This document shows, piece after piece, positions 42,905 to 44,989 of a stretch of 64,000 nt of DNA. Each line of letters opens with the position of its first letter. Position 1 is the stretch's first letter. The notes below the pieces were generated by a model. The model worked only from the letters and a program-made list of their open reading frames with translations, ran no database searches and had not been told where the DNA came from. Source of the DNA: Bradyrhizobium sp. AZCC 2176 (GTDB taxonomy: Bacteria; Pseudomonadota; Alphaproteobacteria; Rhizobiales; Xanthobacteraceae); NCBI RefSeq assembly GCF_036924645.1, contig NZ_JAZHRX010000001.1, positions 5,731,501 to 5,795,500 of the forward strand, in the 5' to 3' direction. Both the position numbers and the translations under genes were made by a program.

Positions 42905-43930
42905 TCACGCCATCGAGCGCTGTGGCAGCAATTCCGCGATCTGGATCGCGTTCAAGGCCGCGCCCTTCAGGAGTTGATCGGCTGACACGAACATCGAGAT
43001 CGAGTGGCCTGAAGCATCGCTGAGATCCCGGCGGATGCGGCCGACCAGGACGTCGTCTTGGCCTGACGCGTCGATCGGCATCGGGAAGTAGTTCTTCGCC
43101 CGGTCATCGACGATCTTGACGCCCGGCGCCTTCCTCAGGATGGCGCGGACCTCGTCCTCGGTGATCGGCCTTTCGCATTCGAAGGTGATCGCCTCACTAT
43201 GCGCGCGCAGCACCGGCACGCGGACGCAGGTCACGCTGATCGCGATCTGCTCGTCCTCGAAGATCTTGCGGGTCTCCTTGATGACCTTGGTCTCTTCATC
43301 GTTGTAGCCGGTCTCGGGATCGATTGCCGTGTTGTGGCTGAACAGGTTGAAGGCGTAGGGATGCGGGATCACCTTGGGCTGGAAGTCGCGGCCCTCGAGA
43401 TGCGCGCGGGTCGATTCCACCAGCTCTTGCATCACGGCGGCACCACCGCCGCTCGCCGCCTGGTAGGTCGACAGGATGACGCGCTTGATGCGGTTCTGCC
43501 GGTGGATCGGCCACAGCGGCACCAGAGCCGTGATCGCCGAGCAGTTCGGGACGGCGATGATGCCCTTGTGCTCCCGGATACGGCTCGCGTTGATCTCCGG
43601 GATCACCAGCGGCACGTTCGGATCCATGCGGAAGGCCGAGGAATTGTCGATCACGACCGCACCGGCCTTGACGGCTGCGGGCGAGAACTTTCGCGAGGTG
43701 CCGGCGCCGGCCGAGAACAGCGCGATATCGACGCCCTCGAACGACTTTTCGGTGAGCTCCTCGATCACGATCCTCTCGCCGCGGAAGTCGATGGTCTTGC
43801 CCGCCGATCGGGCGCTGGCCAGCGCCTTGAGCTTGCCGACGGGAAAAGCGCGCCTGTCCATGGTGGCGATGAATTCGGCGCCGACCGCGCCGGTCACGCC
43901 GGCAATGGCAACAACGGGTTCGTGGCTCAC
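42905..43930 (-). CDS. asd: Aspartate-semialdehyde dehydrogenase
   Basis: Asd reduces aspartyl phosphate to aspartate semialdehyde, the branch point to lysine/diaminopimelate, threonine, methionine and isoleucine. GTG start. The 341-residue protein has the NADP-binding AIAGVTGAVGAEFI, the catalytic cysteine C130 in IAVPNCSAITALVPL, and the substrate-binding STYQAASGGGAAVMQEL. A likely transcription attenuator lies directly upstream (leader ORF 44027-44098, terminator 43969-44004). Confidence 0.97.
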   Translation of the reverse strand: MSHEPVVAIAGVTGAVGAEFIATMDRRAFPVGKLKALASARSAGKTIDFRGERIVIEELTEKSFEGVDIALFSAGAGTSRKFSPAAVKAGAVVIDNSSAFRMDPNVPLVIPEINASRIREHKGIIAVPNCSAITALVPLWPIHRQNRIKRVILSTYQAASGGGAAVMQELVESTRAHLEGRDFQPKVIPHPYAFNLFSHNTAIDPETGYNDEETKVIKETRKIFEDEQIAISVTCVRVPVLRAHSEAITFECERPITEDEVRAILRKAPGVKIVDDRAKNYFPMPIDASGQDDVLVGRIRRDLSDASGHSISMFVSADQLLKGAALNAIQIAELLPQRSMA

Positions 43931-43968: not shown

Positions 43969-44004
43969 TAAAAAAGCCCCGGTCCTTTTCAGGCGGGGCT
44001 TCGG
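43969..44004 (-). terminator. Intrinsic terminator between leader ORF and asd
   Basis: On the reverse strand AAGCCCCG pairs with CGGGGCTT around a 12-base loop and is followed by TTTTTT. It ends about 40 bases before the asd start codon. The left arm of the stem (CCGAAGCCCC) can instead pair with GGGGGCTCGG inside the leader ORF. Alternatively it only terminates the upstream PepSY gene. Confidence 0.85.
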
Positions 44005-44026
44005 TTCAGTTAATGCGATCGTTCGA

Positions 44027-44098
44027 CTACGCGCGCACGGCTCCCGAGCCCCCTGAGGGCGCTTTGGTTTTCGCGGTCGCTTTGGTCGAAGTCGTCAT
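44027..44098 (-). CDS. Candidate Thr/Lys-rich leader peptide of asd
   Basis: A 23-codon frame begins MTTSTKATAKTK: five Thr (ACG, ACT, three ACC) and three Lys codons in the first twelve. Threonine and lysine are both end products of the pathway that asd serves. The codons that follow encode the stretch GGGGGCTCGG, which could pair with the first arm of the terminator. There is no Shine-Dalgarno sequence, but the promoter at 44107-44135 would start the transcript at or next to the ATG. Inference only; Ala/Thr/Lys-rich frames can also be accidental. Confidence 0.5.
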   Translation of the reverse strand: MTTSTKATAKTKAPSGGSGAVRA

Positions 44099-44106
44099 GG
44101 CGCGGA

Positions 44107-44135
44107 CTTATGCGGCAGCTTGGGGCCGCCGTCAA
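44107..44135 (-). promoter_or_regulatory. Likely sigma-70-type promoter of the asd leader
   Basis: On the reverse strand TTGACG (44135-44130) and CATAAG (44112-44107) are separated by exactly 17 bases. The expected start point falls at about 44098-44100, on or beside the leader ATG, giving a leaderless message. Confidence 0.5.
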
Positions 44136-44182: not shown

Positions 44183-44788
44183 TCATCGCCGCCTTGCGGC
44201 GCCGGGAGGCTCGAGGATCACCTGCTTCAGGTCACTGCCACTCATGACGACGATTGCGAAATTCAGCCGGCTGCGTTCGCGGATCAGGCCGCCGCTGATG
44301 GCCTTGCCGGCCGCCGCCTGCTCGGCCACGCTAATGGCATCTGCCAAGCGGTGCCGGATCGTTTTGAGTGCAACGAGGTTGCTGCGGTCCTCGGCATCGA
44401 GCTCCTTCAGGGGCAGGGCGGCCTCGCCGCCGACAATCTTGCCGGTCGTGGCGTCGATGGCATGTTGCCAGATGCGGTCGTCGTGAAAGGTCTTTACGCG
44501 GTAGACTGGTGAATCCGACCCGCCGTCGAAGCTGACATCGGCAGTCGTCGCACCGGCATGCAGGGCTTCGGCAATCGCCATCGCCTGGCTGAGCGAGATC
44601 GCCGAGCCACGGAAGAGCTCAAGCTCGCGGGTGACCGCCTGCTGGTCGGACGCAGCGCTCTGCTCGGCCTCATTGCGGAGTGAGGCTGGCTCGCCGGCCG
44701 ACGACGCGACAGCATAGACCGGGGCAGGGAGGATGACCGCCACCAGGGCGGCTGCAAGCAACTGTCTCCAACATCTCGGGGCACGCAT
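44183..44788 (-). CDS. Secreted PepSY-domain protein
   Basis: The product (201 residues from this ATG, with GGAG nine bases upstream; a start at 44803 is also possible) has a signal peptide (CWRQLLAAALVAVILPAPVYA). Two PepSY-like units follow: ISLSQAMAIAEALHAGATTA with YRVKTFHDDRIWQHAIDATT, and NLVALKTIRHRLADAISVAE. PepSY modules often inhibit peptidases or sense metals. One TetR-type operator copy lies about 200 bases upstream. Confidence 0.75.
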   Translation of the reverse strand: MRAPRCWRQLLAAALVAVILPAPVYAVASSAGEPASLRNEAEQSAASDQQAVTRELELFRGSAISLSQAMAIAEALHAGATTADVSFDGGSDSPVYRVKTFHDDRIWQHAIDATTGKIVGGEAALPLKELDAEDRSNLVALKTIRHRLADAISVAEQAAAGKAISGGLIRERSRLNFAIVVMSGSDLKQVILEPPGAARRR

Positions 44789-44989
44789 GCTTGCAGTCTC
44801 CATCCTTGAGCCTATCTCTGCCGGCGGACGGGCCGGATCGTCTCATACAACGCGCGGCCGACCCTTTGGAGGCATGCGGGTCGGCCGCGGAGCGTCGCGA
44901 ACGGGGGCTGTACTGTCGTTTGCGGCGATCGAAGCGGCGCGAGCCCTGCTGGGACTAGTGAAAACAGGACCCGCATTCCGCTTATAACA

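Follow-up and report, generated by a model that had tools for sequence, protein, structure and literature searches.

A probable threonine/lysine leader-peptide attenuator upstream of a second asd gene in Bradyrhizobium

The window analyzed here is a stretch of 64 000 nucleotides from Bradyrhizobium sp. AZCC 2176, and in it a short open reading frame (ORF) rich in threonine and lysine codons lies between a promoter-like sequence and a terminator-like hairpin, just upstream of an asd gene (Table 1). The question raised by this locus is whether the expression of asd is set by the translation of that ORF. A first-pass annotation, made from the sequence alone, had proposed a Thr/Lys attenuator, and comparison with other genomes supports this proposal well, as the frame, the codons and the terminator are kept and the competing helix covaries. 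The element is real and selected, and a ribosome-mediated transcription attenuator with a leaderless leader peptide is by far the best reading of it, one that we hold to be very probable.

Table 1. Features of the region upstream of asd in the window
Feature	Positions	Strand	Basis
Putative promoter, TTGACG (44135-44130), 17-nt spacer, CATAAG (44112-44107)	44107..44135	-	Sequence, comparison
Leader ORF, 23 codons, MTTSTKATAKTKAPSGGSGAVRA, ATG at 44098	44027..44098	-	Sequence, comparison
Region 2, 5' arm of the antiterminator, GGGGGCTCGG, within leader codons 16-19	44044..44053	-	Pairing prediction
Region 3, 3' arm of the antiterminator, CCGAAGCCCC, its CCCC common to the terminator	43995..44004	-	Pairing prediction
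Small helix GTGCG/CGCAT, can nest within the antiterminator, straddles the leader stop codon	44013..44038	-	Consensus fold
Predicted intrinsic terminator, AAGCCCCGCC-TGAAAA-GGACCGGGGCTT followed by T6, ending at 43970	43970..44001	-	Sequence, consensus fold
asd, second copy, 341 aa, GTG start at 43930	42905..43930	-	NCBIfam
PepSY-domain gene, upstream, outside the device	44183..44803	-	PF03413

All parts of the element lie on the minus strand, in the order promoter, leader ORF, terminator hairpin and asd, and the TTGACG-N17-CATAAG promoter, nearby ATG, 23-codon frame and T6 terminator that had been described before asd were all found there. The leader contains five Thr and three Lys codons, with a Thr/Lys stretch covering codons 2-12; given the composition of four coding sequences (CDS) of the window, the chance of at least eight Thr plus Lys in 22 codons is ~6e-4. 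The ATG is placed 8 nt 3' of the -10 box, so that, if transcription starts there, the leader has no room for a Shine-Dalgarno (SD) site. Duplex prediction pairs regions 2 and 3 over 5+4 bp with one bulged A between them, which bears out the earlier suggestion that a segment of the leader can pair with the first arm of the terminator. The terminator hairpin itself has the core GCCCCG..CGGGGC, followed by the T run.

A generic scan for promoters and terminators listed neither the leader promoter nor the asd terminator; the promoter was missed because CATAAG lacks the final T that the scan demands, and the terminator probably because its stem is bulged. We also ran a composite scan for TTGA[CT], a -10-like box, an ATG 5-9 nt further on, 12-40 codons, a perfect GC hairpin and a T-rich tail, for which the pre-asd element was the single match in the 64 kb, with no match in 20 first-order Markov shuffles. 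Between window positions 43000 and 45000, Rfam returned no match above the gathering score (two sub-threshold matches had E-values of 0.67 and 0.75), and it returned none in 10 fetched loci. No NCBIfam family was found for the five leader peptides searched.

We propose that the element works as follows. Transcription would start at the leader ATG or a few bases upstream of it, and the leader would be translated by ribosomes without the help of an SD site. A shortage of charged tRNA-Thr (or tRNA-Lys) would halt the ribosome at the Thr/Lys codons, at A-site codons ~4-12 in our model; stalled there, it would hold the leader's first half open while region 2 pairs with region 3. This pairing would take the first arm of the terminator, and RNA polymerase would read on into asd. 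With an ample supply, the ribosome would run across region 2, region 3 would pair with region 4, and transcription would end at the T6.

To compare the locus across relatives, 110 Bradyrhizobium-type loci were fetched by the asd protein alone, comprising the 30 best loci and 80 further ones, the latter being the best 80 of 457 in named records and overlapping with the 30. The records behind the 457 are mostly Bradyrhizobium, with some MAGs and one titled Frankia. Under a looser pattern, all 110 loci have a promoter, a close ATG, a short leader ORF and a hairpin with a T run. A further 20 loci, bringing the set to 130, also carry the element, although this is no test because they were recruited by the RNA model R1 itself. 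Each of the best 30 has TTGAC and CATAAG at the same spacing, an ATG 7-9 nt after the -10 box, the 23-codon frame and the terminator, whose GCCCCG/CGGGGC core is invariant (30/30). A strict test was passed by 78 of the 80 further loci, the exceptions being L088, with CATATA as its -10 box, and L152, with a variant T run; the ORF lengths in this test include 22, 24 and, in L140, 50, where the wrong start was chosen. The ATG falls 7-10 nt past the -10 box in 107 of the 110 loci. The 130 loci yield 96 distinct leaders, 94 of them with exactly 23 codons and two differing by one codon; adding L054, from another genus, gives 97, of which two have 22 codons (L109 and L054) and one has 24 (L134).

The first-pass annotation had expected an alignment of relatives to show the leader frame, the Thr/Lys codons and both helices kept, with compensatory changes in the stems. 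Within Bradyrhizobium, the frame, the codons, the spacing and the terminator are indeed kept; the stems are nearly invariant, and a single pair of the consensus fold is changed on both sides. The GTGCG/CGCAT helix has five consensus pairs, each paired in 29 or 30 of the 30 best loci, with almost no variation to test it.

The Thr and Lys codons stand out within this conserved frame. Each of the 94 leaders of 23 codons has 6-11 of them, and the positions Thr 5, Lys 6, Thr 8, Lys 10 and Thr 11 individually recur in 91-94 of these leaders. Lysine is written 213 times as AAA and 20 times as AAG across these related leaders, against 12 AAA and 38 AAG in four CDS of the window. As pairwise averages over related sequences, taken with no tree, pN/pS for codons 2-13 is 0.66 in the leader frame and rises to 1.19 and 1.70 when the other two frames are read; for codons 14-23 it is 2.6 in frame, where pS is low at 0.083, and 1.07 and 0.49 in the others. 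This frame-wise pattern is the one expected of a leader whose first half is kept as codons and whose second half is kept as RNA.

Leaders of this kind are also present outside Bradyrhizobium. An asd orthologue was detected in 6 of the 119 genomes of a family sample (E<=1e-100; five are Bradyrhizobium, and 2 of 47 genera are represented, Bradyrhizobium included), in 4 of the 121 of an order sample (at 1e-95) and in 24 of the 337 of a class sample (at 1e-105). Among the 24 upstream regions of the class sample, 17 have a leader-like ORF with a hairpin, the window's own counted, and six have no leader (G555, G815, G551, G672, G770 and G561); G767 was left out of the count, as its match begins at residue 52. 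With Bradyrhizobium set aside, a leader precedes 16 of the 22 assessable orthologues of the class sample. Together with further pre-asd leaders in G435 (order sample) and G133 (family sample), this makes 18 genomes outside Bradyrhizobium, from 13 family codes, in which asd is preceded by a leader, with peptides such as MSPKTKATTKTKKPFRASVIARA, MTQATKRATTTKTKPSGAGIARA and MRTEKTGKTTTKTTASAGRFLVLAG. These leaders retain little of the peptide beyond Thr and Lys, which number at least six in 17 of the 18, the poorest being L197 with two of each. Weak order-level R1 matches (L154-L156) proved on inspection not to be leaders.

Between these lineages, region 2, which lies in the second half of the leader ORF, and region 3, which sits immediately ahead of the terminator and reaches into it, can pair with differing letters (GGGCTTCGG/CCGAAGCCC, GGGGCTGGG/CCCAGCCCC and TTCTGGT/ACCAGAA), and the competing helix, for which conservation with compensation had been anticipated, does covary over such distances. 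Among 17 sequences, the mean duplex of cognate regions is -19.7 kcal/mol versus -15.9 kcal/mol with partners swapped, a strength matched in 0 of 20 000 permutations (p 5e-5); with 21 sequences, the values are -19.5 and -16.3 kcal/mol, and p is again 5e-5. When the constant CCCC is left out and the extension of region 3 is considered by itself, the cognate partner is no better than the others (p 0.39 and 0.50), so the covariation signal is one of pairing in register with the CCCC anchor. A different pairing, of codons 2-6 with the region after the stop codon, was favored by single folds and gave 0 of 5000 over 74 distinct pairs; it was not accepted, with p 0.27 over 24 class representatives.

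How a ribosome might shift this balance was modeled in 92 Bradyrhizobium leaders, the footprint being taken to cover -14 to +15 relative to the P site. In the model, the mean antiterminator probability is 0.93-0.99 with the ribosome at P-site codons 3-11 and 0.20 at codon 12. It is 0 at codons 13-21, largely because the footprint covers region 2 by construction, and 0.25 and 0.44 at codons 22 and 23, meaning that the block by a stop-codon ribosome is predicted to be partial. Ribosome-free, the leaders have a mean of 0.36 and a median of 0.05, and the probability exceeds 0.5 in 34% of the 92 leaders, L015 and L020 among them. Of the leaders from outside the genus, 12 of 18 are predicted to favor the antiterminator ribosome-free and 9 of 18 exceed 0.5 with a ribosome at the stop codon, while L185 is ‘on’ at merely three ribosome positions. 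Synonymous shuffles of six leaders (100 each), which scramble region 2 as well, came up to the stall value of the real sequence 1-3 times per leader. The difference between the stalled and ribosome-free states was reached by 0-1 shuffles in four leaders and by 87 in L015 and L020, both of which pair ribosome-free too. The rule ‘stall means on’ is therefore nearly general in the model. The rule ‘no stall means off’ is not, because pairing with no ribosome present is predicted for roughly one in three leaders from Bradyrhizobium and two in three from outside it.

The product of the downstream gene is aspartate-semialdehyde dehydrogenase, with NCBIfam scores above cut-off for both NF011456 (431 bits) and TIGR01296 (402.5 bits). 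The other asd copy of this genome, at G000:C1:2400749, is 45% identical to it; no leader was seen upstream of that copy in this genome, where there is a GTG frame alone and no Thr/Lys cluster. An orthologue of the second asd is found in 56 of 60 Bradyrhizobium genomes (in pieces in one of them), and the remaining four have the other copy only. If the attenuator reading is true, it suggests a reason for the retention of the second asd, as an emergency copy made as Thr/Lys charging drops. Between the terminator and asd, 17 of the 110 loci (e.g. L019, L020, L024, L028 and L030) have a palindrome-like repeat with GATCCGGAAAAGTGG, which is not present in this window.

Several other explanations of the element were weighed. 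Short ORFs are common, and a PepSY homologue lies upstream in 92 of the 110 loci (it is absent in 15, and three have too little sequence), as would suit an ordinary terminator of the upstream gene that happens to lie next to a random short ORF. We regard chance of this kind as having a negligible probability. All 15 loci without a PepSY homologue, each with at least 1400 nt of upstream sequence, keep the element, which also rules out the possibility, raised in the first-pass annotation, that the terminator merely ends a PepSY transcript. The conservation of leader length and codons, the covariation of regions 2 and 3 and the absence of the composite layout from all 20 shuffles argue against chance as well. 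The terminated RNA and/or its peptide could instead work in trans, as is reported of rnTrpL/peTrpL, with the control of asd incidental or additional; the layout is like that of Sinorhizobium meliloti rnTrpL, a leaderless attenuator RNA with trans roles according to passages of PMC7298713. This is improbable in our judgment, given that the outside leaders keep so little of the peptide yet precede asd across their 13 family codes.

A mainly translational output, in which the 3:4 hairpin would set whether the asd ribosome site is open, seems to us a shade more improbable again. It accords with the longest U-run just past the hairpin being at most 4 in 13 of the 18 outside leaders, many of which have a second hairpin over the asd SD site (e.g. 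GTCTCC..GGAGAC). It is at odds with the T run of 6-7 in three Bradyrhizobium representatives and with the predicted probability that the SD site is paired, which is 0.30 for the window strain but 0.64 for L025, the L020 figure being discounted for a misplaced start. A proposed relay linking region 4 to a region 5 in the SD hairpin shows no covariation (p 0.27, 23 leaders) and is unsupported. Outside lineages with a short U-run may act on translation or may use Rho. Within attenuation, and compatible with it, the leader could be chiefly a threonine sensor in which the Lys codons are secondary, a variant whose chances we put somewhat short of even. Threonine is the commoner of the two (4-9 codons per leader, with Thr at codon 11 in 94/94), the G133 leader has six Thr and one Lys, and the window of the thrS leader described below holds Thr rather than Lys; weighing the other way, 93/94 leaders retain Lys 6 and Lys 10, nearly always as AAA, and the L172 leader has five Lys and four Thr.

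Leader-peptide attenuators of the thr and trp operons are known in enterobacteria, where peptide-leader control of Thr genes is textbook knowledge; Vitreschak et al. 2004 is among the references given in PMC10117765. The asd attenuator as we read it resembles these systems in its short ORF with pathway codons, its mutually exclusive antiterminator and terminator, and the biosynthetic gene downstream. It differs in that the ORF is probably leaderless and runs across region 2, and in controlling, as we read it, the second asd gene of alphaproteobacterial genomes.

Passages of PMC7298713 describe rnTrpL/peTrpL of S. meliloti as a leaderless trp attenuator whose 5' end was shown to coincide with the ATG of its leader ORF; they also give a trp leader peptide of B. 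japonicum. Like rnTrpL, the asd leader would be a case of alphaproteobacterial transcription attenuation, with a 5' end at the ATG that is shown for rnTrpL and proposed for asd; rnTrpL has Trp codons and trpE(G) as its target, and the likeness considered here is one of layout. Passages of PMC10117765 deal with SEP5 of S. meliloti, an sORF located in the 5'-UTR of an ‘aspartate dehydrogenase’ gene; six of its codons are for Thr and three for Lys, its translation was seen by Ribo-seq and Western blot, and there it is suggested as a leader peptide and said to be conserved in Sinorhizobium only. By this description it is like the asd leader, a Thr/Lys-rich sORF upstream of such a gene, although the same passages give neither a terminator nor an alternative structure for it, and the asd leaders may connect to the SEP5 suggestion. 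Leader peptides are also reported, in parts of the respective sources, before leuS, trpS and leuA in Actinobacteria (the LEU element; PMC1262725) and before trpS and ilv in Caulobacter (PMC4117421). Like the asd and thrS leaders, these precede genes for biosynthesis and aminoacyl-tRNA synthetases; they differ in their genes and amino acids, and LEU is a pseudoknot from another phylum. In the portions of the literature covered by our search, we found no description of asd, dapA or thrS being under peptide-leader control in Bradyrhizobium; the main texts of PMC5082802 and PMC4842269, on USDA110, were searched by term and gave no passage on asd or a leader peptide, and the searched text of PMC4833913 had none of the sought terms. 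If the attenuator reading is true, these leaders would be useful, as a collection of leaderless ORFs, for work on how starvation is sensed when there is no SD site.

Similar leaders were sought in the rest of the genome. A terminator-type pattern occurs at five sites in its 7.1 Mb, with none in the reversed control: asd, a dapA-like gene, a short thrS and two others, which on inspection lie 3' of a tRNA-like sequence and 3' of a response-regulator-like ORF. The dapA-like gene (PF00701) has a leader peptide with Lys codons (MITRSCAALSSKKGPHLGTRDRRAR) and the short thrS one with Thr codons (MNKLRSAASTTTATAYGGSPAGCAR); in each case, promoter-like boxes lie a few nt 5' of the ATG. These two were recognized by eye and not by their R1 scores, which in this genome are 177 bits for asd, 19.4 (E 0.5) for the dapA-like leader and 14.0 (E 8.3) for the thrS leader; another match, at 15.0 bits, is not a leader. 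The short thrS paralogue (G000:C1:6805928-6807136, L171) encodes a protein of 403 aa in which the class II core and the anticodon-binding domain are the only domains, and a longer copy is also in the genome. It occurs in 6 of 26 Bradyrhizobium genomes (truncated or in pieces in two) and in one genome of another genus, G084, with a Thr-rich leader in all seven loci read.

The fold model switches the dapA-like leader ‘on’ over a window that shifts with the footprint from A-site codons 10-13 to 12-15 and always includes Lys 12 and 13 (p 0.022). For the thrS leader, the predicted ‘on’ window is A-site codons ~10-14, and of the four Thr codons of this leader it holds 4 at a footprint of +15, 3 at +18 and 2 at +12 (p 0.0005, 0.0076 and 0.11, respectively). 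Weak R1 matches led to 19 fetched regions, of which 10 lie before ORFs that are dapA-like by the look of the sequence, 8 before small genes, two of which were checked and proved to encode DUF1127 proteins, and 1 before neither. These matches supplied ten further dapA-type leaders in other genera; in the nine whose leader ORF was read, 1-3 of codons 6 to 11 are for Lys. In the five that were modeled, the window coincides less well with the Lys codons (p 0.04-0.57), and L071 pairs ribosome-free. We tentatively suggest, as a possible if somewhat doubtful generalization, that the spare enzymes of alphaproteobacteria (the second asd, the dapA-like one and the short thrS) form a small regulon that responds to starvation. 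Each would have the same type of leaderless leader, whose codons name the sensed amino acid, with an output that shifts by lineage from intrinsic termination in Bradyrhizobium to occlusion of the ribosome site where there is no U-tract.

A separate repeated element was seen in other Bradyrhizobium genomes (L056, L058, L059 (two), L060, L062, L063, L069 (two), L073, L157 and L158). Its parts are a conserved mini-ORF, which mostly ends in NHMTRFGWAVGGVVR, together with a CTTGAT box, a hairpin resembling a terminator and perhaps another hairpin at the SD site; two proteins encoded 3' of it were checked, and both carry DUF1127.
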